In this document: in pieces, positions 13,459 to 64,000 of the stretch | Layout of the letters: each line of letters starts with the position of its first letter | Numbering within the stretch: position 1 is the stretch's first letter | Origin: Xiphophorus maculatus | Taxonomy: Eukaryota; Chordata; Actinopteri; Cyprinodontiformes; Poeciliidae | Reading direction: 5' to 3' | Assembly (NCBI RefSeq): GCF_002775205.1 | Contig: NC_036461.1 | Coordinates: 13,925,015-13,989,014, forward strand | DNA: 64,000 nt | Made by a program: the position numbers and the translations under genes | Notes under the pieces: model-generated | Databases searched by the model: none | What the model saw: the letters and a program-made list of their open reading frames with translations, nothing else | What the model was told of the DNA's origin: nothing

Positions 13459-15703
13459 ATGAACACCACCACACCCAACAAATTTGAATTTTCCTTTCTT
13501 GAAGAGGGCTTCTCTGCTCGGGACATTGTTGAGCAGAAAATCAATGAGTCATCCTTGACAGTAAGTATCCGGTGGGGTTTATGTAATGGGCAGATGGTCT
13601 GATTTGCTTTGTCAGCAGGATATACTCTGAAAATCTACACCCTTGATTAAACCGGATAACTTTGTCCAAGTGATTCTCTTTTAGAATTGTTTTTGCCTGT
13701 TAGAAGCTGGTCTAATTCACTATTCATATGTGTTAAAAGTAATCTATAACATTATTTTTGTTTTTCTATTTCAGGATGATAGGGATGCATTCTATGTCTG
13801 TGACTTAGGAGATGTTTTACGAAAACATCTCCGTTGGGCAAGAGCTCTGCCTCGCATCACTCCTTTCTACGCCGTCAAGTGCAACGACAGCCAGGCTGTA
13901 GTTATGACGCTGGCATCGTTGGGAACTGGCTTCGACTGTGCAAGCAAGGTAGACTTTGGGAGCTTTCCATCAATGCTGTTAGCACAATTTATTTATTTGC
14001 TGAAAGTGCATTGGTGCCTCCTGCGTTTTTTGCTGACTGTTGGTATTGTCCTCCCACAGACGGAGATCCAGCTTGTTCAGTCCCTGGGAGTGGATCCAAG
14101 CAGAATAATCTATGCCAACCCCTGCAAGCAGGTCTCACAAATAAAGTACGCATCTGCACACGGAGTCCAAATGATGACCTTCGATAGTGAAGTGGAGCTC
14201 ATGAAAGTGGCCCGTTGTCACGACAATGCCAAGTAAGAGTTTTGCTTTTTAAACTCAACAATTGTCTTTGATTGTTGGCCTTTGTTAAAGCCGTTTCTGT
14301 TCTCCGTTCAGGTTGGTGTTGCGCATCGCCACAGATGACTCGAAGGCTGTGTGTCGCCTCAGTGTGAAGTTTGGTGCTCCCCTCAAAGCTTGTCGCGGTC
14401 TCCTGGAGCGGGCAAAGGAACTGGGGCTGGATGTGATCGGTGTCAGTTTTCATGTTGGCAGCGGCTGCACTGATGCAGAGACCTACACCAAAGCCATTGC
14501 AGATGCTCGCTGTGTCTTTGATATGGGGGTGAGTTGCTAGTAAAGAGCGTATTCAGCTGTAATTAATGTTTTCTGCTCTGCAAAGAAGCCTGAACTTAAT
14601 GTCTGGACATGCAGGAAGAGCTTGGCTTCAACATGGATCTCCTGGACATTGGAGGAGGTTTTCCTGGTTCGGATGACACTGAACTGAAGTTTGAAGAGGT
14701 AGATTGAAATGTTTTTGTTTAACCAGTCTTCTGTGTTTTAAGTAAAATTTTACTTGACTTACGTGTGGACTCATTTCCATTTATAGATTACAGTAGTAAT
14801 CAACACGGCCCTCGACAAGTACTTTCCTGTCGACTCCGGGGTCAGGGTCATCGCTGAGCCGGGACGCTTCTACGTGGCATCTGCTTACACATTAGTGGTG
14901 AATATCATTGCTAAGAAGGTCATCATGGATGACGAATCATCTTCAGATGGTAAGGGCTTTGGTTGAACAGACAACTGAGATATTATTTATCTCAGTTAAT
15001 TATGACAATGAAACTAATTGCTTACCTTTTTCCTGCAGAGGAAGATGAAGGGACCAGTGACAGAACTCTGATGTACTACGTCAACGATGGGGTGTATGGC
15101 TCCTTCAACTGCATCCTCTATGACCACGCTCACTGTTTGCCGACATTGCATAAGGTCAGTCAGATTCAAAGCTTATCACTGCGGTGGGATCAAAGGGTAA
15201 AAAAAAAAATGCTGACCAGATCTTTATAAACTTTCTTCCGATTGTTTCTTATAGAAACCAAAACCAGATGAGGCGGTGTACCCCTGCAGCATATGGGGCC
15301 CTACATGTGATGGTCTAGATCGGATCGTGGAACTGTGTACCCTGCCTGACCTCCAGGTGGGGGACTGGCTTGTTTTTGAGAACATGGGTGCCTACACTGT
15401 AGCTGCTTCCTCCACCTTTAATGGCTTCCAAAGACCAGACATTTACTACGTCATGTCCCGTCCTGCCTGGTGAGTTTTTGTCTTAGAAATTAACTCATGA
15501 GGAAATTCTACAGTTTTTAAAGTTCCTTTTTTAAAATTATAACTTGTGCCCATTTCACCTTTAGGCAATATGTGCAGCAAGTCTGCTCCCAGGGCCTTCC
15601 AGCTCCGGTAGAGGAGTCCTCCTTGTTCGACCTTCCAGCATGCTGTGGCCGAGAGAGCAGCTTGGACATGTCCACTAAGCCTTGCCATGCCCATGTGGTT
15701 TAA
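13459..15703 (+). CDS. odc1: ornithine decarboxylase (complete)
   Basis: ODC1 makes putrescine from L-ornithine with PLP, the first committed step of polyamine synthesis in the cytosol. Coding exons are 13459-13560, 13775-13948, 14060-14232, 14312-14528, 14615-14698, 14787-14949, 15039-15154, 15255-15469 and 15565-15703, in frame throughout, giving 460 residues (human 461). Visible landmarks are the PLP lysine in PFYAVKCND (Lys69), SFHVGSGC with His197, the glycine loop [18 protein letters not shown], and the active-site cysteine in GPTCDGLD (Cys361). The antizyme-binding segment around residues 110-145 is well kept. The C-terminus ends CHAHVV with nearby cysteines, comparable to the mammalian degradation tail. 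The start is the first ATG in the exon that follows the non-coding leader exons. Regulatory signs are the uORF at 12443 and a CACGTG box in intron 1. Confidence 0.97.
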
Positions 15704-18920: not shown

Positions 18921-21900
18921 TCATGAAATCACGGATAAGTCCTTCCTCTCATAATGTTTCCTAATATATTCACTGATAGCATTTTGATTATTAATCTCTT
19001 TTCTGAACAACATAATGTAACACTTGGGAGCCAAGTGACAGCCAAGGATGCTGAAGCATGAGATCAAAATGGCTGCACTGCTTATAGCCGGTTTGTACTT
19101 TCCTTCCAAAGTGAGATAAATTGGGAGGAAAACAATCCATATGATTAAAAACAGCACCATGCTCACTGTGATCAATGAGGCATTTTTGTAAATGTCTGGT
19201 AGCTTTCTACCTTTGAATGCAAAGATAAAACACACAACGCCCCAGAAAGAGTTGTAGACTATTGTGGCAGCAAAAAACTTTTTGGACTTTTCGCACATGT
19301 TACATTGGTACAATATTGTGGACTCTTTCTGGTCCTTTGAAGGAAGACGTGGGAGAACGATTAGCCAAGCTAAGGATACACCCAACTGCACACCAGAGAT
19401 GATGACAACCACAGCTACTGGATGATTAAGCTTCTTAATCTTAGAGCAAACCCTCGGGTCAAAGCTAAAACCTAGCAGGATCTGAATTAAGTTGGCCAGA
19501 ATGCAGGAGATACAGAGGGAGAAACTTATACCGAACAGAGGAATGCCTACACAGGAATTTGGTGTGGGTTTTCCTATAAAGGTGAAGGTAGTGCAAAAGC
19601 CGAGGAGCAAGGAGGCCATCTCCACATAACACAGGGAACCTCCAATTGCCTTAACAATGGGAGTCCCACAGTTGAAGCCAATGACGATAGCAATGACTGC
19701 AGTAGCAATTATTGCAATAGCAGATGTCGTGACCAGAATGATGGAGAAGGGGTCTGACCACTCAAGAAACTCTTCAGTTTTATTCTCACATGTATACCTG
19801 CGGTTTGCTGGTGAGAACTCGTTCTCTTCACATAGACTGCAAAAAGTATCTGCAGAAGGAGACAAAGAGAAAGAATATGAAAAACAAACAAAAAAAAGAC
19901 ATTGGCTGCATTTTCATGTGAGACTGGGAAAAAGAGGGGGAACGATTGTAAGCTTTGGATCATTGTCCTAATAGAAACCAAATGCTTCTGAGCTAATGGG
20001 CTCAAACTGATGGCAAGTAAAGTAAGAGAGGAGAAAATTGTATTTTAGGCAAAAACAAAACATAGATAGTAAAGATAACACTGACCATTTCCATAAGAAG
20101 ACTCTTGAGGTGAACAGTTAGCACATCTATAGCAGCATTTTCCATAATGTAATTCCAATTTTTCTCCTGGTTTACATGTTTTGAAGCAGTTAAAAACAGA
20201 GACCTGTAAAAGAGACAATAGGATTAACACACTCTGTATTTTACTGATTAATATATCTTCATCTTACATTTTCAGTGGTTCTCCATTGTGACAGATCTTT
20301 GTTAAATGAAATGTTTTTATTTGGCCAGTATTCTCCGATTTTTATTTTCTCAACACCTTCTTTGGACGCAGATGTGTTCCAAAACAATATGTCGTATCCC
20401 AGACTGGGATCTCCGTTTTCATCGAAGTAGATATTTGTGTCATTCACAGTGATGTTGATCTTCCTGATTACATGAAAAAGCTGTGGAGACAATTTTTAGG
20501 CCGATATTACTTGTCATGGAATTGTAGTTTAAATATGTTTACAGACAAAAACAGACCACATAGATGGGTCCAATATCATTATTAATTTACCATAATACGG
20601 TTTAGTTATGGGAATAAAATTAATTCAATATGTTAGGACTTGGCGCCAGAGATTATACATATGGGGACATTTATATACTCCATGTCAGAACATTGCGTAA
20701 TTTGACTGTCTTGAGGACAAATGTGCAAAACTACCTGTACAGGCGATATAAATAACAAAAAGACTGATATTTGCTGAAAAACAAAAGGTACGTTTTAGAC
20801 TTTGTTCGACTAATAATCACAACCAAACATATAAAAAGTAATTTGTAACGAATGACTCAAAACAGAAGCTTGTTTACTATACCTCAATAGCAGTAAACGT
20901 GGTCCGTTCACAGCTTTGATTGTTACATTTGAGTAAGATTCTGAGGCCCTCAGCAATGACCTGAACAGCCAGGTAGATGTTGTAGGATTCATCATGATCA
21001 ATGTAGCAGTACAAGCAGTTTATGTCGGAAGTCTTATTCGCGCAGTTACACTTCATGTCATCTTTGGAGCTGTTTGTGAAAACTTGATAATAACTCAAAA
21101 TGCTGTTTGTAGTTCCATTAAACATTGAGGTGACGTAATCTTGAAAGCCCGGCACCTCCTTTTGTCTAAAATTGAAACCAAAAACTGGACCAATGCTTTC
21201 GATTCCTGTCATCTCAGAGATTTTAGAAGAAGTGGACCAGGTGTCACTTGCTATCCAGGTTCTGTTGAGATTTTTTTCAACAACTGCTTCAAGGATGATA
21301 CGAACATTGGTGTCTATGGTGAACATGATGATGGCCTCAGCGGTAGAAATTTCTATTTTTTTCAGCAGATCTCTTGCTGTTGAACAGTTTTTGACAAAGG
21401 TATCAGGGAGAATGTCCACAAAGTCAACACAAATATTATTGCCAGTGAAGAGCTTCAGGAGACTATCAGTTCCATACTTCCCATATTCATCAGTGCTTCC
21501 CACAATGGCCACTGATTGCCATGAAGAATACTTCACCAGCTCGTAAATGGCTTGCGTCTGATGTTTGTCACTGGAAACAGTCCGTAGGAAGGTGGGGAAC
21601 TTATATTTTAAACTGAGCTGCTCACTGGTTGATGCATAGCTAATCTGTGGAGAACAGCAATGCAATGAAAGAAGATATAAAAAGTCTACACATCCATATA
21701 AAATTTCATACATTTTCCTATAAATGACTGACGTTTTCTTCCCCTTTAATATGACAGGTATCCTGTACAGATCAACCAAAAAGCAAGGAAATCTGTCTGA
21801 GGAAAAATGGAAAGAACAAAAAAGCAATATAACCTGGTTGTGTAAGTGTTAACACCCTTAAATTTTTTTTGTTTGTTGAATCACTGTTTGAGTCCTCATG

Positions 21901-26709: not shown

Positions 26710-29700
26710 ATGGTTTTGTTAGTGTGGAAGGTGGTGGTGGTCTTTGGTATCCTGGCGGTGGGATCTCAGGGCTCTCTCCCACAGCCCCGGTCACAGCGTC
26801 GGGTGTCTCCAGGGCGCTATGACCGATCAGAGAACTTAGCATCGATCCCAGGGACGTCTGTAGAGGCGCAGAGTGAGGAGCGCTTTCAGGAGGTCCGGCG
26901 GGGTGACCAGAGAAGCGTCCTGCTGCAGCGGGGCGCGCGGAAAGATGCCGACATCTACCTGAGGCACGAGGGACTGAGAGATGACGCAGGTTGGACTTTC
27001 CCTGTCATTTTAACTGCTAGACCATGCAGTTTTAGATATGTAGAGTTTATTTTACATCCGAGTGCAGTAGAAATTGTTATTGGTTCATTAGCACTTAAAA
27101 TAATAATACAACTCCAATTCTGATGCATAAGTCTGTTGCACTATTTAGCTCTATTCAGACACACACACTTTCCTTAATTTGCTAAATTGGTGGCAATAAG
27201 TCTTGGTTTCATGGGTCCAAGCCATCTCAGCGTAAAGCTGCACCATCTGGCTCCTTGCAGCCTGCTGGAGATTCTCCAGCAACAATCGGCAGCAGTTCAG
27301 GTACTGAACATCTCAACATAAGAACTATATACAAAAAAATGTGTGAATTTTTTTTTCTTACAATAGATATTATATATATATATATATCTTTTCTCTTTGT
27401 TCATTGTTTTGTGCTAAACTGAACATATTTTCAATATAATTTCTGGAAGAAAATTAACCAACCAGTAAAATCAAATATAATATAATATTATATCTGTTAT
27501 GAAATCAAATATAACAGATATAATATCTGTTATTGGGCTTGTGCAACAAAAAAAAACAACAGAAAAACTTGGAAAAATACATATGGATGCCAGTGATGGC
27601 AAATACAGTGTGTGTGTGCTGTCATTTTATAAAATAAGAAAATCAATCAAATAAACAAGGAAACATGAAACACAAATGTCAAAACACAAGTAGCTACCAA
27701 AATAACTAACTCACTTTTTCTTATAAGAATATTTTTCTCTCTGCTTACAAAAAAAGAACAGAAAATGAATCTAATAAAATTGTTTTCTTTTTCCTTTACA
27801 GCAACAAGAACTAATTGCAAAAATCGCCCTATTGACCTGGTTTTCATCATAGACAGTTCCCGCAGTGTGCGCCCTGCTGAATTTAAAAAGGCCAAGGAGT
27901 TCCTGCAGGCCATGGTGGACAGCCTGGTTATTGGCAGAGATGCCACTCGTGTCGGCCTCGTTAATTATGCGAGCACAGTCAAAATTGAGTTTCTCCTCAA
28001 CACTTTTTTTGACAAATCCTCTGTGATGCAGGCACTCGGCCAAGTTGAGCCCTTAGCTTCAGGCACCATGACGGGCATGGCCATCAGGACCGCCATAGAG
28101 AAAGCCTTCACCAAGGAGGCCGGGGCCCGATCCGCTTCCATGAACATTGCTAAGGTGGCTATTATAGTGACTGATGGGAGACCTCAGGACAAGGTGGAGG
28201 AGGTGTCAGCCACAGCCAGAGCATCTGGGATTGAAATCTATGCAGTGGGAGTTGACAGAGCTGATATGGCTTCCCTGAAACTTATGGCCAGCCAGCCACA
28301 TGATGACCATGTCTTCTATGTGGAGACCTATGGTGTGATCGAGAAGCTTACGTCTAAGTTTAGGGAAACTTTGTGTGGTAAGGATGATGATAATGGGAGT
28401 GCAGATATTGATAACGGACTAGGCCTAAATGGCAGGAAAGACGATAATAAGCGTGACAGTGAAGGGAACAACGGTATGTCAGATCGGTCCTATTCTATTC
28501 ACCTGTGAGCATATGGGCAGCACCGTAGAGAGGATCTTCATTCTAAGGCTAGTGGTCCTCTTCTTTAATTTTAAGTACAACACAAAGACAACCACTAATT
28601 TATCACTAATTGGACATGCTACTGAAAAGATGTCCAGCAACTGTGAAAACACTGAGTGGTATTAATGCAGTAAGCCTTAAGCATAAATAATAAATCCCAC
28701 ACTAACCAGCTTAAAGAAGAGACGATTCAGATTCTGACCACATTCTTTAAAATGTAGGAAACTTAATATGTTGCTGTCTATTCTGTTCACAGAAATCTGC
28801 TGCTGCTGTAATAAGTGCTGCAAGCCATTAAAAAGTCGTCTAAAGCAGGAACTCACTAAAGCCAACTGCTTTGCAATTAGCTTTAAAAAAAGCATTAGAA
28901 AAGATTTTTGTTGCCATTTTTAAGTAGGAAATTTCTTTCATTCTCATGTATTTAGAAGAGCTTGACTAAACACAGCCACTTTCCTAAAGAAGCTTTAAAC
29001 CATACCTTAAAACATTTCATTTTATTCTATTTACAATATTTTTAAGGAAAATATGCTTTATACATATATCTCAGCTAAGAAACCATACTTCATCAAAGCT
29101 AATGTATACTTAGCTTGGACCTGTGCTGAAGACTAAGTACTAAATACATTTCTTACGATGGCATTCACTAGCACAAATAACCCCGACTAACAGGTCCCTT
29201 GGACCTATTTAATTTTCAGCTTTACTTTGCAGCTAAAATGTATAATTTAAAATTTAAGCTTGAGCCACATTGAACCAGATTGTTCATCTGCTAGAACCAC
29301 CACAGTTTAGCATTTCTAAGTTTACAATGTTTGTTTTGTTTTGTTTTTTTGTCTTTGCTTCATTCTCACGTACCATGGCTATCAAGATCTCTGTTGAGGC
29401 TAGGCTCAAACATCCATAACAGCCTCTTCATAATGTTATATCTTAAATTTAAAACTAAAGGGACTGAATTTAATACCTTTAGTATTACATGTTAGCACTG
29501 GCTCAAAAAAGTAAGAACTGGTTATGTTTGCTGCTTAGTATAAACTTTTTGCATGGCACTAATTTGTGAAGTTCTATTTAATTTTTATACTTACACTGCA
29601 AGCCCTTACTTTTAAGATGAGGGTATTATTAAAATTTATGGAGAGATTTTGGGATAAAAATTACCCTTGTTTGAATAACTAATTTGACTAAATTCTCAAA

Positions 29701-32700
29701 ATGCCAACTGGCGTCCAAAAACTGTTTGCACTCCCTCTCATGCAGCGTTCTCTGAACATATTTAATTTCTCCTTTTTGTTTGAGAAAAGCTGGCTAAATA
29801 TTGTTGGTAGATTACAGCTTAAGTTTCCGAATCTTAGAAATTGGATAGAAACACTGGTTTCAAAAATACTATCTTTCTCCACAGCCAAGATTAGTCGATT
29901 TGTACAAACACCTGATGTATTTTGGAAACACCTGCTGTACATTGTATTTGCTACTAACAGAAAAAGCTTCCTGTTAAACATCCAGTTGAACCTAAAGAGT
30001 ATTTTGGGGTTTTGGTGTGAACAACTTGTGCTTTACTGCAATGGTGAAATCATTACTGAAGACAAGTTTTGTGCTTGGATTCACTTTTTATTTGACTGCA
30101 TGGTTCATATAAGGATGGGCTGTAATTGGAATTTAAAGACACTGAACTACTTAAATATTCTTACAAATACTTAAAATTCAAATCACATAAGTAACCCATA
30201 AATGTAGCATCTCTTCAGCTGAATAGCAAAGATCATACAAACTTGCTTGCATGTGGCAGATTTTCTAAATACTCACAGACTAACCAAACAATAAATGAAA
30301 AGCTGATTTTACTGTGATTTTAGTAAGCATAAGCCAATCAGACAGTGAAGTGTTTCCTTTTAGGTTTGGATCCATGTGATCAAGGACACAACTGTCAGCA
30401 TATTTGTGTCAACAGTGGTGACTCGTACATCTGCAAGTGTCGCCCTGGCTACATCCTGAATCCAGACAAGAAAACATGCTCACGTAAGAATAAAAATAAA
30501 TCTTATTTCTCAGTGTTCAGCATTGCTTAAGATTAAATATTGTACAGACAAGCCTTTTGTTAGTTAGCTTTAAGATTATATCCAAATAATTAAAAATGTG
30601 CTCTAGTAAATTACAGTTGTTGACAGCAATCTTGGTGTGCTTTAAGGTTCTATATTGAGTCCTCTTCTTTTTAGTTTGTATAACAGTGACTTTCCTGATC
30701 TTTGTCCACCTCATGGTACTTGTCAAATATGTGCAGGGTGATACAGTTGTGAATTTGCATAAAGAAACAAACAGGCAAGACCTGTAACCTGTAATTACTG
30801 ATATGTCTGACTGGTTGCATAACTCGTGTTTAAACCTCAGTGTGAGTACGCAGGTTCTCTTCAAGTTCTGTAAATAGAGCTCCAGATGCTGAAGCTCTAT
30901 TGACAGAGAAAATACAGTCATTGGTACTGGATTAAAAGTGTAACAGAGTTTAACAACTTACTTGACAACCATTTACATACTGGCTTACAAAAACGAGCAA
31001 GTCTCTGCTAGTTTGAGCCATATTACTGCATATGAACGCCTAGCAGAGCACAGTTAAAAACACAGACTATTAGGTGGTGGATGTTCATAAATCCTTATTA
31101 TAATCTTCCTCCTGAAAACTATCCCAGCCTGATGTGTGAGTGACTTTTTTCAGGTGCAGATGCTTGTACCCAGGGACATGACTGCCAGCATATTTGTGTC
31201 AACACCCGCGACTCGTACATGTGCCAGTGTAGAACTGGATACGTGTTGAACACAGATAAGAAAACATGCTCACGTAAGAACATTTGATTCTTTCAATAGA
31301 TCATAAGTTTCAGCTGCGGTGACTGATAGATTTTCTGATTTTCGAAAAATAAGGGTCTTAAGTCCCAGTTTACCTCAGAAGTCAAAGGTCTTCAGGTTAT
31401 CCAGCCTGTAGATGCCTTAAAGTAAGGATTGGCAATAAACATTCATGTCTTTTCTTTGTTGTGTTTGCACAAATAACCCAAGCAATACATGTAGTTATGT
31501 AGGTTAAATAGTACTGAGTACTTGACATCTTAATCAAATAAGAAAACATTGTTAGAGGTCAGTTTGAACATGACAGCACCTCTTTTCCGGTTTAGATAAA
31601 TGACTGCCGATGTATGTGTTTCAGCAAAGGTGACTATCACATATGCAAATGTTAAGTGGGACGTGTGTTAGATGCAGACTAAAAAAAATGTAAATTACTC
31701 ATTTGTCTGTTTTCCCCCCTTTTCCTTCGAACTCAGGCAAAAGATTTCTAGGTATTGCTGATTTACATACAAAATTATGTCTAAAACCGCATTCTAGCTT
31801 GGCTGTACAGAGGAGACTTTTGTTTGTGTGTTAATGTGGAAGTTTCTCTTCGCAGGTATGGATGCATGTTCTTCAGAACATAACTGCCAACATATTTGTG
31901 TCAAAAGTGGAGATTCTTATGTTTGCATGTGTCGCAAAGGATATTTGTTGAACGCAGACAACAAAACATGCTCACGTAAGGAAACTTGCAGCCACGTTTA
32001 GTATGCTTTGCTGGTGACTATGTTGAGGTTTCACAGGGATATAGAGATATGTAGAAAATTTGTGTGAGAATGTTTCAAAAAAATGGCGTAAATCCCAAAT
32101 ATCGCAGAAAATCTTAACTTATGCTCCCTTTATTAAACATAATATGCCTACTATTCCTTTTGATTATTTTTGCACTAAAACTTTGCATTGCTTGTTTTAA
32201 TTTCTTCATCTGTTAGGTTAGAATTAATTGCAGCACTAGATATTTTGTCATGCAAATTTGTTTCTTTCCAGGTTCTGATCCATGTGCCCTTGGACACGAT
32301 TGCCATCATATTTGTGAAAATAGTGATGCATCATATGTCTGCAAGTGTCGGGCGGGATATGTGTTAAATACAGACCAGAAAACGTGCTCACGTAAGACAA
32401 AGCTATGATATCTGTGTCTCAAAAAGTTATTTGTGAGATGGAATATTGATTCTTACATTTAGTGTCAAGTATATTGTCCTCCCTCTCACTGCTTTTCTCA
32501 CTGTTTTTGGAAATGTTGGATCATGTGTGATTTCTTTTCAGGTTCTGATCCATGTTCCCATAGACATGATTGTCAGCACATCTGTGTAAACAGTGATGCT
32601 TCACACATGTGCAAATGTCAAGTGGGATATGTGTTGAATCCAGATAAAAAAACATGCTCACGTAAGATTTTTCTTTTCTGGACAAGCAGTTGTTCATTGC

Positions 32701-35700
32701 ATCTCATCTGAGGCACGCAGATGTAATATGTAATAGCTGCTCATTTCAGATTCAGGTACATGTGCAGGATAACATGGCTGCCAACACATTTGTATCAAAA
32801 CGGATGACTCGTTTGTATGTAAATGTATAACAGGATATGTTTTGAATCCCGGCGGGAAAACATGCATACTTAAGATTTGTCATTTCACTCTGCATAAAAA
32901 TATAAACAATTGAAAATCATCACAGCAGGACTGCTTCATGTGAAGCTTTTTACAGCAACACAAAATGCTCTCCAAAAGAAAAAGGATTTCTGATATCAGA
33001 AGTCTCTGCTTCCTTTTCTTTTCAGGCTCAGACGCATGTTCTCAGGGACATGACTGCCAGCATATATGTGTCAACAGTGGAAGCTCATATGTCTGCAAGT
33101 GTCGGCTGGGATATTCGCTCAACATGGACAGGAAGACATGCTCACGTAAGCAAATTTATTTTTATGTTACTTAAAATCCAGCTTGATTTTCACAAAAAAT
33201 TCCAGAAGTGTATATTTTCCAGGTTTCAAGGCGGTAGAGCATCAGAAAAAAAGTGGCATCACCTATTTGTATACTTATTATGCTAAAATGTTTGCTAAAG
33301 TGCAGAGAAGTACACTGTTAGTGTTTTAGTCACTTTTATCACTGAACACAATAATCAGCTAATCCCCTTTGGTTTCCAACTTGGTACTGGAACACATGTT
33401 AACTCGGTTGCTGTCATTAACAGACAGCAACAACAACCACTGGCTTGTTGCTGCTTACATTCATCTGCTCCTGTTCCTACAGAAAGATCTTCAAATATTC
33501 TCTTCAATTTTTTTTCCACACTTTTTATTAAACAAACATCTGTATGTAAATTATCTTTTTTACTGCAAATATTATGTCTAAAATTTAACTGGTTAACTTT
33601 TAACTTTGAAATTAAAACAAAATGTATCCTACCACTAAAAGCAGACCTTGTGCCAGCAGTGATTCTTGTGTACCAGTTTGACAACCTTGGACCTAGATGA
33701 CTTTGAAATTTGATTTCTTCTCTGTTTACAAATTTTGTCTTTGAGGCAACTTGTGTCAACTCAGGATATACTCGTTTGCATGTTTAATGTATTATAAAAC
33801 TCTTTCCGTGACTCTTTCACACAATGGGATGCCAGTGCTGTTCTGTGAAATAATTTTCATGCTCCCAGCATCATAACACAACAACAAAACTACCTTTCTG
33901 GAGGAGTAAAGTTGCAAAGCAGTTGAGCACAAACATGCTGCAAAACATGCAGCATGGCTATTCCAATTGTCAGAATAGAAACTGGCATGGTCAGTAGCTT
34001 TCTTAATTTATGGATCCTTATAAATGGGCAAAGAATCAATAGGTCAAATGATTATTTTCCATCAGCAATTTAGATTTTCTGGCATTTATAACTGCCTTTT
34101 TTCTGTAATGGAAAAAAAGGCATTGCAGAAAACAAAAAGTCTGATGTTAAAAAAAGATGACATTCTGGAACTTTTTTCTCTTATATCTGTTGAGTTATGC
34201 GATTCAAACATTCACAGGTTATGTCATAGACGAAACATTAATTTAATAAGCAAAACATGTTTGTGGACAGAGTAAACTGACTCAGTGTCTTCCTTCAGGT
34301 TTGGATGCATGTATTCAGGGACACGACTGCCAGCATATCTGTATCAACAACGGTGTTTCTTACAACTGCAAGTGTCGAATAGGATACATGCTAAATTCAG
34401 ACCAGAAAACATGTTCACGTAAGTTTTTCTGTGTTCATGGCACACTGTCCTCACACCTCAAGTTGCTTGGTTATAGATGATCTCTTGGAGTTCCAAATTT
34501 CCTGAATAAACAGTCTGGCACGGGCTTCCCTACAACTGTTGGGGTGTCTATGGAAAGTTACATAACTGTCAATACAGGCCTGTGTTAACACAATGCTAAG
34601 GCAGAAAGAAATCTACCCATTTATCCAGGGAAAGGCTGCAGGGCCATGTCCAAACAATTTAATGACCATCATTCAACTGTGGGAAAGATGAACTCAGTAC
34701 AATCTACTAAGGAGTTGGTATCTTAGTGAATTAACCCCTACTGTTAGTGTGCAATGTTCAAAGAAATTACACACAAAAAAGCAGAGCTTTATCTCACACT
34801 CTATTTAGGATGGTCATGTTAAAGGTGCAGTATGTAACTTTTCTAAAAAATATATACACATGGTTTTTTTTACATATTTGTTAAAACTGCTACTATATTG
34901 TGACAGCATAACATGAGACATAATCTGGGAAAAAAGTTAGTTTTTCTGGCCTTTCCCTGAGGTCCTACTGACATCTGCAGAAATCCACAACTCAGTCAGA
35001 AACGTATTGCTGTCAATCACTCTCGTACAGACAAAATCAGAAGCATTGTTGCAATTACCTGTTGAAGGTGAAATGTTGGAAAGGAACAGAGGTTCAATTT
35101 CAAGGTGTCAGAGTCCAAAGTCAAATTTAATGTTTGTATTTTTATAACCTCTGCAGGTAACATAGTTACTAGATTGTGTGATAAAATAGCAACATGTGCC
35201 CTTTTAATTAAGAGAGTTGTGCATAAACAAAGATCTGCAAATCTAAACAATCTGAAGAAATGTTAGAGAAAAGAAGAAATCCTTACACAACAATCTAAGA
35301 GAGTGATAAAACCTTACAGATAGTTACTGCTAAGAGTGGTTTTACTAAAGACCTAACTTCAAACAGGGACTTTGTAGTTCAATGTAGTCTTAACATTTTT
35401 GCATCATGTACTTGATTTCAGTTATTTTTAATCCATTAGTTTAAAAATTATTACTGGCTTTATTACAAAAAGGGCCAATAGCTGTGCTTTTTACCTGCAG
35501 GAACAACTCCAAAACTATTTGGGTTTAGCTCATTTCTGCACCTTTAAATTTAAATGTGTGTTTTGTTTATAACTACACAAAGATCAGAAATTGATAAAAA
35601 GTAAGTATTTAGTGGTTCTGCGCAGTTTATAGACAAGGGTTCTGTAGGAAAACTTTTAACTATTAAAATGTTAATTTCTTTGCATAGTTAGTAACATGTT

Positions 35701-36362
35701 GCTTTTATATTTGTCTGGATGTCTTTTCATTTAATAAATGTTGTGTGTCTTAATGTCCCATTTAAGGTGGACCTCATTAAGTAAGCATGTTAAGGTCGTA
35801 ATTGGTTACACTTTTTAACATTTTAGAAAAACTACTAATCTTTGTCTTAAACTAAAATCATTATAGATCTAATCTATTGTGTGTGCAATCTGAGCCACCC
35901 TATATTAAATAACACTTTCAATTTCATCTAACATTGATCTCTGATTCCAATCATCCAATCAATTTTTTACCTGCTATGTCATATACCCAGCATACGATGA
36001 TCAAACATTTCTTCTGCCCCTGTCAGACATGTGTTTTCATTGTTTCAGAGGAAATGAGGAGTGAAATTTCAGAAGATGCCTGCATGTGTGAAGCTCAAAT
36101 TGTATTCCAGAAAAAAGTGCAGTCAGCCATTCAAGAGCTCACCTGGAAAAATATCCTTTTTTGAGTCCATAAATTTAGATTTCATTTTACAACTTAAATT
36201 GGTTTTAAAGACAACAATCTTTCCGATCAGTTGATATTATTCAATATTTTTACATTAAATTTGCACTTTTCCCCATAAAATATTTGCATTTCCTTGACTG
36301 TTTGTTCACTTTCTGAACTTTCAGACAAAGTAAACGACATTGAAGGCACATTCCAACATTGA
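26710..36362 (+). CDS. matn3: matrilin-3 (complete; seven EGF domains)
   Basis: Matrilin-3 is a secreted adaptor of cartilage matrix that oligomerises through a C-terminal coiled coil. Exons are 26710-26989, 27802-28377, seven 120-base EGF exons (30364-30483, 31154-31273, 31856-31975, 32272-32391, 32542-32661, 33026-33145, 34299-34418), 36049-36150 and 36310-36362, in frame, giving 616 residues. Order: signal peptide (1-21); basic linker; one vWA domain from about residue 99 with MIDAS residues DSSRS and VTDG; EGFs at 286-565, each with the CQHIC and CKC pattern; then CMCE, the cysteines that join chains in matrilins, and a heptad coiled coil. The final intron is AT-AC. Human MATN3 has four EGFs, so this form is longer. 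One vWA domain rather than two, and the wdr35 neighbour, favour MATN3 over other matrilins. Confidence 0.93.
27095..27330. repeat. local repeat, copy 2, in matn3 intron 1
   Basis: This is the partner of 24595-24860. It lies just after matn3 exon 1, outside the coding part. Confidence 0.6.
30364..30483 (+). other. matn3: matn3 EGF exon 1
   Basis: This 120-base exon runs in from phase 1 and out at phase 1, between TTTTAG and CAC|GTAAG. It encodes [20 protein letters not shown] and on to TCS. It is preceded by a 1986-base intron. Confidence 0.9.
31154..31273 (+). other. matn3: matn3 EGF exon 2
   Basis: This 120-base symmetric exon has six cysteines ([14 protein letters not shown], then CQC, then TCS). 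Confidence 0.9.
31585..31697 (+). pseudogene. dead matn3 EGF exon (first)
   Basis: It lies between EGF exons 2 and 3. The text TGACTGCCGATGTATGTGTT, then AAAGGTGACTATCACATATG, aligns with live EGF exons, and reading that frame gives [14 protein letters not shown] followed by a stop. A second stop follows the remnant LDAD. The 5' part with the first cysteine and acceptor is deleted, and no good donor remains. Confidence 0.75.
31856..31975 (+). other. matn3: matn3 EGF exon 3
   Basis: This 120-base symmetric exon encodes [20 protein letters not shown] and continues to TCS, with all six cysteines. Confidence 0.9.
32272..32391 (+). other. matn3: matn3 EGF exon 4
   Basis: This 120-base symmetric exon encodes [20 protein letters not shown] and continues to TCS. 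It starts with the same GTTCTGATCCATG as EGF exon 5, suggesting recent common origin. Confidence 0.9.
32542..32661 (+). other. matn3: matn3 EGF exon 5
   Basis: This 120-base symmetric exon encodes [20 protein letters not shown] and continues to TCS. Confidence 0.9.
32754..32873 (+). pseudogene. dead matn3 EGF exon (second)
   Basis: It lies 92 bases after EGF exon 5. In frame it reads GTCAG, stop (TAA), then [26 protein letters not shown] and TC. The spacing is unchanged, so one substitution made the stop. The donor, GTAAG in every live copy, is TTAAG here. Retained codon pattern shows recent loss. Confidence 0.85.
33026..33145 (+). other. matn3: matn3 EGF exon 6
   Basis: This 120-base symmetric exon encodes [20 protein letters not shown] and continues to TCS. 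Confidence 0.9.
33740..33805 (+). pseudogene. possible third dead EGF exon
   Basis: The text ACTTGTGTCAACTCAGG then ACTCGTTTGCATGTTTAATG resembles the middle of live EGF exons and of the second dead exon. Only about 65 bases align and no splice sites are seen. Confidence 0.35.
34299..34418 (+). other. matn3: matn3 EGF exon 7
   Basis: This 120-base symmetric exon encodes [20 protein letters not shown] and continues to TCS. It is separated from the coiled-coil exon by 1630 bases holding a TTAA-bounded repeat. Confidence 0.9.
34819..35208. mobile_element. TTAA-bounded MITE-like repeat
   Basis: It begins TTAAAGGTGCAGTATGTAAC and ends, on the opposite strand, TTAAAAGGGCACATGTTGCT. The start matches a common fish repeat by memory. 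TTAA at both ends suggests a piggyBac-type target site. Confidence 0.5.
36151..36309 (+). other. matn3: AT-AC (U12-type) intron in matn3 coiled coil
   Basis: The donor is ATATCCTTTT (36151-36160), exactly the U12 consensus. The branch motif TTCCTTGAC is at 36290-36298, and the first AC after it is at 36308-36309, 11 bases from the branch A. Using that AC gives [18 protein letters not shown], with unbroken 3-4 heptad spacing. Two later AC choices (36318, 36326) shorten the coil and break the heptad register. Matrilin genes are known to carry a minor-class intron at this place. Confidence 0.9.
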
Positions 36363-36922: not shown

Positions 36923-37103
36923 CTTTTATGAATCAACGTTTTCCACACAACTGTCTTCACTCTTATAAAGTCATAGTCTTTGTATTACTGTTGATACTTA
37001 TTGCTACTTTTCTATGTGATCAACAGTGATGACTTCATTAACAAAATTAGGATATTTTCATGAATACATGTTTTATGTAACAAGTGTATTGTTATTTGAG
37101 AGG

Positions 37104-38485
37104 CACATTGCTTCGAATAAGCAATGTAGTGCTTATTCAAACTATAAATTACATTGTATTTTACTAGGATTTTATTTGTTAGACCAACACATAACAGTGA
37201 AATGAAAACAAAGTTATTAATACATGGCTTTTATTGTCTTACAGCTAACAAGCTGAAAAGAGTAAAATGCACTGTGACCCTTTCTTCTGACAATCTAAAA
37301 TAAAATCAGGTGCAATCAACTGTCTTTGGTTTTCACTTAACAGTAAATGGTGTGTAATTTAATATCAGAATAAATGTGTGAAGGCTCCAGAGGTTTGCTA
37401 GAGAACATTAGTGATCAAAAAAGATCAAGACAAAGTAACACTGCAGTTTGAAAGAGATAATGTACTGTCATTTGAAGCATGATTGTTATAAAACAATATC
37501 CAAACATTTGAACATCGAATGTTGTACTGTGCATCACCTGAAAACAGAGTATGATATGAGGGCAACCCTGACATGACATGACCGCCTAAACTGACAAGGA
37601 AATAATCAGAAAAGCATCCAAGAACTCTGTGGTTGGTTTGGAGGAGCTCCAGAATTATAGGGGTCAAGTGGTGGAATCTGTTGATAGGACAAGAACTATC
37701 CATGCACTCTACAAATAACTATCATGGAGGAGTAGCAAGAAGAAATTCCCAATTTTAAAAGAGCTCTAGAAATTCTCATTTCCAGCTTTACGCGACACAG
37801 AAGTTATGTGGCACATGGAGCTCCAGACGGCCTTCTGAGAAATGCAATGTTTGACAGACAACTCACGTGAAGACATGGTAGCGGCAGCCTCATACTATGG
37901 GAATGCCTTCATTAAGCAGCGACAAGCAAGCTGATCAGACTGGAAGATACAGTGACACAAAGGAAAATCCTAGAGAAAATAACAGCTGGAGCCTGAAGAC
38001 ATGAGTCTTGGGTGAGGTTTATCTTCCAGTAGGAAAACAACTCCAAACATACAGTTTGAGAAATAATGAATTGGTTTCGACCAGTGAATTTTATGAGGTA
38101 GAATAACCTGGTCAAAGTCCAAACCTAAATAAATAAGTGAGAGACAGTGGCATGATTTGAAAAGTGCTGTTCACACACACTCTCCATTAATTCTGAGTAA
38201 GCTTGAGCTATTTTTGAAAGAATGCGCAACATTTTAGATGCACAAAGCTGGTAGAAGCATACAACAAAAGACTTGCTCCTATTGCATAAGAAGGTGTTTC
38301 TATAAAGAATTTACATTTAATAAGAGGAACTTTGAAAAACATGTTTATTCTCCTTTCGCTTATCAATGGAGCACTTTGTATTGGTGTAGCACATAAAATC
38401 CCCCAAAATTACATTGTAATTTGTGGTTGCACCTCACAAAGAAACAAACAGATTCAAAGTTGAGTATTTGGCTTTGCAATGTCTA
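37104..38485 (+). mobile_element. Tc1-like element, nearly full length but decayed
   Basis: Inverted ends are AAATTACATTGTATTTTACT then GGATTTTATTTGTTAGACCA on the left (from 37146), matching the complement of 38360-38422. Inside, in order, are degraded transposase blocks such as GAGGAGCTCCAGAATTATAG and CTGGTCAAAGTCCAAACCTA (the WPSQSPDLNP region). Many frameshifts and stops make it inactive. Confidence 0.75.
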
Positions 38486-51714: not shown

Positions 51715-52604
51715 GTCAAAAGTAAACACACTATTTCACTAAATTCTCAGATTTTTGATAACTTAATCTGTTTAATAAATGATAAAAGTTCTCAATTTTG
51801 GATTGACAAGCAATTTTCCAGAAATGCATTAATTATTTTTGTCTCATTCTGTTAAACATTCTTCAATCGTCTTTTGTTTCTCTGAGATTTGAAACAAGGG
51901 TTTTAGATCCAGGAGTAAAAACCCAGACATTGCTCATCCCAATGACACCCTACAACACACAATATTCTCAAAAATTCTGCTTCATCTGTGGTTTGTGACA
52001 TTTAGCTGGTATGAAAATGAACTCTAAACAATATTTCTCAAAAAAGAGCGGAGCAGATTTGCATGTTTACCCTTCTGCCGTTGCATTAATATCATTTAAA
52101 CATTTACGATTCTGGAAGAATTTCAGGGCCCAACATCAAAGCTTATTAAAATCCTTGGAGATCTCACACGAGCTGCAGCGCCATGGCCTGTCCATGCATC
52201 ACACATGAAAGTTTAAACATCTTAAGAGAGCTTCTCCCAGCCTGGGAGAAGCTGTGCAGAGTTTTCAGTCTGCTGTACGCTCAAATGCTCCTGCAGTCCG
52301 GACTGAGCAGAGCCACTCGACAACACAAGGTCAGGTGACATTATGCCGTCTCTCTGTAACAGATGTTTGTTTGTTTTTATAAGTGTTAGTGATGATGATA
52401 ATCATTTGTCCAGAATATTCTTTTAAGAAATGCTATCAGTCTCTGCCACTATTTCAGTAGAAATGACTGCTTAACCAGCTTTACATTTTGTATTCTGTAT
52501 TTTATTTATTTTGGTGCATAAATGACATTCATTTATGACACCTGTGTTCTGGTCTGCAGGTGCTCTGAACAGGAAGGAGTCTTGACAGCAGCAGGTGCTT
52601 CGTC
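51715..52604. other. wdr35-kcns3 interval and probable kcns3 leader
   Basis: No coding gene is seen. A GC-richer patch at about 52225-52330 ends in CACAAG|GTCAGG, and 52550-52560 reads GGTCTGCAGG just before the kcns3 start, so a leader exon spliced to the coding exon is plausible. A perfect hairpin lies at 52230-52252 (11-base arms GCTTCTCCCAG, one-base loop). Confidence 0.45.
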
Positions 52605-53864
52605 ATGGTGTACGGCAAAGTCCTTCACCAGGCTGATGGCTGCTTCATTAACATCAATGTTGGAGGATTCAGGCAGCGCATGGCTCACTCTGTCCTGAGG
52701 AGATGGCCACAGACCCGCCTCGCCCGCCTCCTGCACTGCGCCTCCAGAGCAGCCATTTTGGAGCTCTGTGACGACTTCTCTTCCTCTGAAAATGAGTTCT
52801 ACTTTGACCGCAACCCAATTTTTTTCTGCTCCATTCATAACTTCTACCTCACAGGGAAGCTCCATCTGGTTGACGGGTTGTGCATGGTCTCATTTTTCCA
52901 GGAGCTGGAGTACTGGGGAATCAAGGAGCACCACCTGGATTTGTGTTGCAGCAACAGATTTCAGGAGCTGATGCAGAAGATATGTTTGGATCAGGGGGAT
53001 GATGATCAGCACCGCCAAAGCTCAGGCTCCTCAGCTGAGAATCTTCCAGCTTTTGAGGACGAGCTGGAAGAGTTTGAAGGCTCCTGGTGTGCAAATGTTC
53101 GCAGGAATATCTGGATTCGACTTGAGAATCCCAGTTACTCCACCTCAGCCAAAGTGATGGCTGTGGTGTCTGTGAGTGCTGTGGTTGTTTCCATTGTTTC
53201 CATGTGCTTGAACAGCATGCCGGGCTTTCATCAGGTGGACTCTGGTGAAAAACGCATAGAAAACCCACTGCTAGTCCTGCTGGAAACCATCTGCATCCTT
53301 CTGTTCTCTGCAGAGTTTATTCTTCGTTTGGTTGTTGCTCCTTCAGCCAAGAAGTTCTTGAGCAGCACTCTGAGCATCATCGACTTTTTGTCCATCTTCC
53401 CCTTCTATGTGACTTTGATCTGTGATGGCACAAAGAAAGACGGGAATAAAGAGCTGGAGAACGTTGGCAAAGTGGTACAAATCTTGAGGCTGACCCGAGT
53501 GTTTCGTGTTTTGAAGTTGGCCCGTCACTCAGCTGGACTCCGCTCTCTCTGCTCCACACTGAGGCACAGCTCAAGGGAGATGGGACAGCTGCTGCTCTTC
53601 TTATCTTTGGGGGTTTCTCTGTTTTCTGCTCTTATTTACTTCGTAGAGAGAGAGTCCAAGGAGTCACAACTGCAGACCATCCCTGTTGGCTGGTGGTGGG
53701 CCACCATCAGCATGACCACTGTGGGTTACGGTGATACAATCCCAGTTACTGTAGCTGGGAGGCTGATAGGAACCCTGTGCATCGTCTGTGGGCTGCTTAT
53801 TGTTGCTCTTCCTATAACTAACATCTTCAACAAGTTTTCCAAGCTTCATCAGAGGCAGAGATGA
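52605..53864 (+). CDS. kcns3: voltage-gated K+ channel modifier, Kv9.3 type
   Basis: Kv9 subunits do not conduct alone; they join Kv2 channels at the plasma membrane and change their gating. This intronless coding region gives 419 residues. The T1/BTB domain (about 15-118) shows INVGGF, ILELCDDFSS, EFYFDRNP and ELEYWGI. Six membrane segments follow: S1 183-201, S2 221-243, S3 254-273, S4 290-310 with R/K at three-residue spacing (RLTRVFRVLKLAR), S5 328-347, and the pore with TTVGYGDT (371-378). S6 ends ALPITNIFNKFSK, lacking the PVP gate motif of conducting Kv channels, as in Kv9. Resemblance to KCNS3 (CCSNR, ENVGKVVQILRL) and human 2p24 synteny support the symbol. The tail stops right after S6, about 70 residues shorter than human KCNS3. 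Confidence 0.87.
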   Translation: MVYGKVLHQADGCFININVGGFRQRMAHSVLRRWPQTRLARLLHCASRAAILELCDDFSSSENEFYFDRNPIFFCSIHNFYLTGKLHLVDGLCMVSFFQELEYWGIKEHHLDLCCSNRFQELMQKICLDQGDDDQHRQSSGSSAENLPAFEDELEEFEGSWCANVRRNIWIRLENPSYSTSAKVMAVVSVSAVVVSIVSMCLNSMPGFHQVDSGEKRIENPLLVLLETICILLFSAEFILRLVVAPSAKKFLSSTLSIIDFLSIFPFYVTLICDGTKKDGNKELENVGKVVQILRLTRVFRVLKLARHSAGLRSLCSTLRHSSREMGQLLLFLSLGVSLFSALIYFVERESKESQLQTIPVGWWWATISMTTVGYGDTIPVTVAGRLIGTLCIVCGLLIVALPITNIFNKFSKLHQRQR

Positions 53865-59551: not shown

Positions 59552-62544
<2,993 letters not shown>

Positions 62545-64000
62545 CTGGAAAAAATAAAAACAAAAGAGAAGAGAGAAAAAAGAGTGATGAACGGGTTGAA
62601 AAACAGTCACCATGTTCGGCCAAAACTCGTCTTCGCCTCTTAATCCTCTGAGCATCTCAGTGCATAAATTTGCTGGAAGCACCAACATGGGTGTTGCGTC
62701 CAACGCCTCCCACCATTATTAAATTCACACATGGCGCCCCCTGTTTAAAGGCTTATAGTAATGATTCAATCCATGTCGACTGTAACCCCCAGAGTGGAAC
62801 GGTGACACATGCAGTGAATCATGTGGGAAAGCCCAAAGGTGTCCGGCACATCTCATTGTTCTACAAAAAGCAGAATGAGACCAACGGTGATGATCTGCTC
62901 TGCGAAACGGGTCGGTTTGCTACCCAACTGGAAACTGTAGAAAACATTAATTTGTGGAAAACTTTAAACCCAAAACAGGCGCCAGTTTCATTTCTTTTTA
63001 TTTTCATATCCACAGTTGCATCTCCAAGGGCATCCAGAGAGGGTAATGATCCAGAGAGGGTAATGTCCACCCCAAACCAAACACTCCAAAGAATATCTTT
63101 CTTTATGAACAGGAATTCAAGAAAGGAATGGGTTGTCAACTAGATTTAAAAAAAAGTTTTTATTATTTGCTCATTTATTTTTGATTTATCATGGCCCTTT
63201 TAATATTCAACTTTTGAGCATCCTTCCAATATAACATGTAACAGCAGCATACTAAAACCCACACATTTCTCTTTTTTTTCTGCGATGGTTCATTACACCA
63301 AGATAGTAATTTTAATCCTTTACAAAGTTTTCTGAGTTCGACCCTGTTTCACAATAAAATCCAACTGAAGAAGAAGCAGCAGGGGTTTCGTCGGGTGTCT
63401 CTACATTGAATAAACACTTTTCTGCGCAGATTGCTGCTCCTCCACAGATGGAGGACGTGTCAGCTGCGCGTAATTTACGCGCGTCCCGGGCTCCCCGCGC
63501 CTTCCCCCCTTCCACTTATTCCCGACTTTCCGTCGGATATCCCGGCAGTCTATTGGAACTTTGTTTATCACAGTGACTCACTGTGTATGGGATTTGTCCA
63601 GCACGTGTGAACCGAGCTGAGTTCCAGTAAGAAAGGGGGAAGCGGCCAGCTCGAACAAGCCGGGAATTCTTATCCAGAAACATGGCACGGAGAATAAAAA
63701 AGAATTCCTGTTAAGTAATAAAACAAGCATGGATGGATAAACTCGCTGAGGCAGAGGCGCAGACATTCCTTGGGAGTCGTTATATGAAATGCTAGAGGCG
63801 TGATAAAATATTCTATTGCTCCAATAAACAGAGAAACAGGAGGTCATGTAATGGAAAACTGGCACTGAGTGATTACAGGCTGATAGATGCGGGCCAAAAG
63901 TCGTTTACTGTAAGGTTGCGTGAGCCTGACGCCACTTTTCCACAGAAGTGCAGCAGACGTTAAGACCGGGGTGTGGGGAAATAACATGCCTGGTCCTGGA
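62545..64000 (-). other. fosl2: fosl2 first intron, 3' part
   Basis: This is non-coding sequence upstream of the first visible fosl2 exon. An imperfect tandem GATCCAGAGAGGGTAATG occurs at about 63032-63066. A GC-rich patch with CpGs lies at 63465-63560 (TGCGCGTAATTTACGCGCGT). No FOS N-terminal exon was recognised. Confidence 0.5.

Follow-up and report, generated by a model that had tools for sequence, protein, structure and literature searches.

The 64,000-nucleotide stretch of Xiphophorus maculatus DNA analyzed here (the window) contains a complete matrilin-family gene on the forward strand, extending from ∼26710 to 36362 (Table 1). The features of the matrilin family are all present: one vWA domain, EGF-like domains encoded by an array of exons, a C-terminal matrilin coiled coil and an AT-AC (U12) intron. 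The EGF array is matched above cut-off by the Pfam FXa_inhibition and EGF_CA models and by other EGF models. Exon 1 has a putative donor (GGCGGG/GTGACC) that would leave phase 1, as required by the vWA exon. A tblastn search of the whole window with its own vWA protein (E up to 1) returned only the self-match, at 27816–28472, and no second vWA domain. A single vWA in the window, with none between the EGF repeats and the coil, corresponds to the matrilin-3 layout as described in the cited part of PMC2427018.

Table 1. Features of the matn3-type gene and its neighbors, in positions of the window
Feature	Position	Strand	Evidence
Ornithine decarboxylase-like gene	13685–14236	+	Orn_Arg_deC_N
Class C GPCR gene pieces, upstream of matn3	18921–21848	-	7tm_3, ANF_receptor; taste- or vomeronasal type 2-like by eye
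matn3 exon 1 (signal peptide and N-terminal region)	26710–26902	+	ORF from ATG 26710; donor tentative
vWA domain exon	27802–28473	+	Pfam VWA E 3.3e-50; donor GTATGT; phase 1 at end
EGF exon E1, intact	30364–30483	+	120 bases, six Cys
EGF exon E2, intact	31154–31273	+	120 bases, six Cys
D1, dead EGF exon	∼31590–31695	+	nhmmer E 6.6e-10; alignment and translation
EGF exon E3, intact	31856–31975	+	120 bases, six Cys
EGF exon E4, intact	32272–32391	+	120 bases, six Cys
EGF exon E5, intact	32542–32661	+	120 bases, six Cys
D2, dead EGF exon	32750–32869	+	nhmmer E 3e-17; one TAA, lost donor
EGF exon E6, intact	33026–33145	+	120 bases, six Cys
EGF exon E7, intact	34299–34418	+	120 bases, six Cys
First coiled-coil exon	36049–36150	+	Pfam Matrilin_ccoil
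U12-type AT-AC intron	36151–36309	+	ATATCCTTT at start, branch site TTCCTTGAC at 36290–36298, AC at end
Last coding exon, including stop codon	36310–36362	+	sequence, coil frame
Putative degraded Tc1-type transposon, downstream of matn3	36990–38000		by eye
Voltage-gated potassium channel with BTB domain, downstream of matn3	52569–53864	+	KCNS3 suggested by eye and synteny
fosl2-like exons	59552–62715	-	by eye; two pieces tried in Pfam, no match

The AT-AC intron splits the coiled coil and preserves the reading frame across the junction. Its start and branch site were recognized by the U12 consensus motifs, and its acceptor was placed by the frame of the coil; another in-frame AC lies nine bases further on. 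When the coil is joined across this intron, it matches the Pfam Matrilin_ccoil model with an E of 8.4e-15 and a score of 54.7 bits (cut-off 26.3). The best match of the coil among solved structures is the coil of cartilage matrix protein (1aq5), which is a weak match (E 0.0028). No matrilin was found in the structure searches among the best 60 of 111 matches for the vWA domain, or among the best 60 of 97 for the array plus coil.

Mammalian MATN3 likewise has one vWA, EGF repeats and a C-terminal coiled coil (PMC2427018), and it shares the minor intron, since all four matrilin genes are reported to contain minor introns (PMC6865273, in which a conserved AT-AC intron appears among the references). 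The surroundings may also be similar. MATN3 lies near WDR35 and, at a greater distance, KCNS3 in the human, mouse and chicken genomes; two MATN3 paralogues, MATN3a and MATN3b, are retained in fish (zebrafish and Tetraodon), and WDR35 adjoins one of these in Tetraodon (cited section of PMC1464127). Here, a WDR35-type piece downstream of the gene matches the WDR35/TULP4 profile at 51.7 bits, below the cut-off of 80, and a second downstream piece that resembles WDR35 by eye gave no match to the profile; the BTB plus ion-channel gene further on is a KCNS3 candidate by eye. The gene is most likely fish matn3, a vertebrate cartilage-matrix gene. In making this assignment, EGF repeat number was not taken as defining matrilin-3. 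The first-pass annotation gave four EGF exons for human MATN3, in line with the four EGF repeats of mammalian matrilin-3 stated in PMC2427018, whereas the present array contains seven intact EGF exons and two dead ones.

The intact exons (E1–E7) are uniform in structure. Each is exactly 120 bases long, with an AG acceptor, a GTAAG donor, phase 1-1 and six Cys; seven intact, symmetric exons of this length had been described in the first-pass annotation. Because all of the exons are phase 1-1, the gain or skipping of any one of them preserves the reading frame. The EGF repeats of human matrilin-3 would be ∼two residues longer than those encoded here.

Two further exons in the array, D1 and D2, are dead. 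When a profile of the seven live exons was compared with the whole window using nhmmer, D2 and D1 stood far above noise and the next match had an E of 0.75. In D2, a TAA stop lies at 32770–32772 and the donor reads TTAAG in place of GTAAG; the acceptor, the full exon length, all six Cys and 16 of the 19 invariant residues are retained. Both lesions had been noted in the initial reading of the sequence, although the exon was placed at 32754–32873, four bases away from its true span. The mean identity of D2 to the live exons is 63%, as compared with 73% among the live exons themselves. D1 has a 14-base net deletion at its front that removes the first Cys codon, leaving five of six, and two TAA stops in the inherited frame, and it retains 9 of the 16 invariant residues compared. 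Deletion and stops had been proposed for D1 at 31585–31697 and are found, and the alignment indicates that both splice sites have been lost as well (acceptor CG in place of AG, donor TA in place of GT).

No further EGF remnants were found in 6,496 intronic bases by either a gapped profile scan or a pairwise scan, each judged against shuffles. The best gapped profile score in the masked introns was 20.7, compared with a null median of 19.5 and a 95th percentile of 24.0 (200 shuffles). Two segments that appear EGF-like by eye, 30674–30769 and 33749–33796, scored 103 and 102 in the pairwise scan, where the shuffled introns gave a mean maximum of 101 and a 95th percentile of 118 (100 shuffles). 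Because these scores lie within the shuffled-intron range, the two segments are not counted as remnants. In the intron scans and in the blastn comparison of introns, the first intron was begun at 28477, three bases late.

The divergence of the live exons bears on when they arose. Across the 21 live pairs, dS ranges from 0.79 to saturated (two pairs are beyond estimate), dN from 0.13 to 0.29 and dN/dS from 0 to 0.26, with a wide error on dS at 39 whole codons per exon. The pair with the lowest dS, E1 and E7 (0.79), is non-adjacent. At an assumed neutral rate of 3–10 substitutions per site per billion years, even this pair would date back roughly 40–130 million years. Comparison of the introns between exons by blastn (plus strand, E up to 0.1) revealed no significant similarity; three rows of 24–26 bases, two of them reciprocal, had E values of 0.038 to 0.044 and were taken as chance. 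As a control, the same settings linked all 21 live pairs, D2 to six of the seven live exons and D1 to four of seven, and left D1 and D2 unlinked. Because the control misses the D1–D2 pair and some of the D1–live pairs, intron similarity near 60% would escape detection. High dS together with the lack of significant intron similarity indicates that none of the live exons, which are old copies under purifying selection, was born recently.

The first-pass annotation had interpreted the array as active birth and death of domains. The death of individual exons is shown, but active birth is not, given the high or saturated dS, the lack of significant similarity between introns and the non-adjacent position of the closest pair. 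The description of the array as expanded presupposes a starting state of four exons. A two-way turnover, with exons now being born and lost in this lineage, would accord with the symmetry of the exons, with the two deaths and with the adjacent E4 and E5 exons, which are 79% identical and are grouped with a support of 84. However, E4 and E5 differ by a dS of 1.16 and their introns lack significant similarity, indicating that even the clearest adjacent pair is old, and we regard ongoing turnover as unlikely.

A tree of the EGF exons had been suggested as a check on this interpretation. The supports are too weak to give the order of births: the DNA tree is poorly resolved, with supports of 84 and 70 and all others at or below 58, and the best support in the protein tree is 56. 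In the DNA tree, the branches of D2 (0.48–0.50) and D1 (0.61–0.63, the longest) exceed those of the live exons (0.14–0.22) by ∼0.3 and ∼0.45 substitutions per site, respectively. Simulations of neutral decay provide a second clock. For D1, retention of 9 of 16 residues falls between 0.2 and 0.3 substitutions per site; five retained Cys and at least two stops seldom coincide at any simulated distance (1.3% at best). For D2, retention of 16 of 19 residues fits ∼0.08 substitutions per site, and the simulated odds that all six Cys survive are 5.5% at 0.2 and 1.7% at 0.3 substitutions per site. For both dead exons the branches imply more change than the residue counts, and this conflict leaves the date of D2 death (∼0.3 by branch, ∼0.08 by residues) uncertain; a period of relaxed constraint before death could reconcile the two clocks. 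D1 died before D2, by residue counts and branch lengths alike, and both deaths postdate the births.

Two other explanations concern D2. Its lesions, only two in number in an exon with six intact Cys, might be assembly errors or mark a segregating null allele, a reading that we consider very unlikely in view of the independence of the two lesions, the loss of 3 of the 19 invariant residues and the long D2 branch. Still less probable is that D2 is a poison exon, with acceptor and in-frame stop maintained for unproductive splicing that tunes the matn3 level: the CAG acceptor, the unchanged length and the single stop would suit such a role, but the GTAAG donor is gone, the sole GTs within the 90 bases that follow (32879, TTT/GTCATT; 32940, CAT/GTGAAG) are poor or far, and D2 is less similar to the live exons than those are to each other.

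We consider it probable that the matn3 EGF exons derive from old tandem duplication and that an array of at least nine was reduced to seven by the successive decay of D1 and then D2. The duplications would most likely have involved unequal crossing-over between similar exons. The seven survivors remain under purifying selection; the dead exons would be skipped in the mature transcript, and the distance separating the vWA domain from the coiled coil would be slightly shortened. Judged from this sequence, only the losses can be placed in order, from at least nine exons to seven. It is also possible, at somewhat less than even chance, that a fish matn3 once contained nine or more EGF exons and is losing them stepwise under strong constraint on the survivors, so that exon death is altering, in this lineage, the EGF spacer length of a cartilage filament protein. 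EGF number is stated, citing earlier work, to be without effect on matrilin assembly (PMC2427018, in the part cited), which suggests that exon loss is likely to act on spacer length instead. Loss from an exon array is a known and ordinary kind of gene evolution and is not new. Dead exons lying among live ones are of value in showing which domain was lost earlier and which later; domain losses otherwise appear as interspecies differences in repeat number. Should the set of live exons vary among relatives, matn3 would be a neat case linking spacer length to cartilage structure.

A comparable system is teleost piccolo b, in which one zinc-finger exon has been amplified 8 to 16 times and single exons have been gained and lost between species, with unequal crossing-over proposed as the cause (PMC3484663). 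Both arrays consist of repeats of one exon with gains or losses of single exons; the zinc-finger exons are of varied length, whereas the EGF exons here are exactly 120 bases and the dead ones are still visible. The cited section of the same study counted 1598 genes with two co-orthologues in zebrafish and one in mouse. Where one copy retained the mouse domain count, the other had increased in 132 cases, and by three or more domains in only four, two of them misannotated; the author cautions that annotation is poor (PMC3484663). Given how rare increases of three or more are in that survey, a gain from four to seven, once confirmed, would hold some interest. In a literature search by titles and abstract starts, none of the matches listed had a title on the number of EGF exons in fish matn3. 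A 2005 abstract by Ko et al. reportedly says that EGF numbers vary among zebrafish matrilins.

Cys codon usage within the live EGF exons is position-specific. The first, third and fifth Cys are TGT and the fourth is TGC in all seven exons. Minority codons account for 3 of 42 Cys codons and for 14 of 49 codons at other fixed two-fold residues (hand count; Fisher p 0.014, for exons that are not independent and a contrast picked post hoc). A Ser TCA codon is present at the 3′ end of all seven exons despite the high overall dS, perhaps reflecting a splicing constraint.
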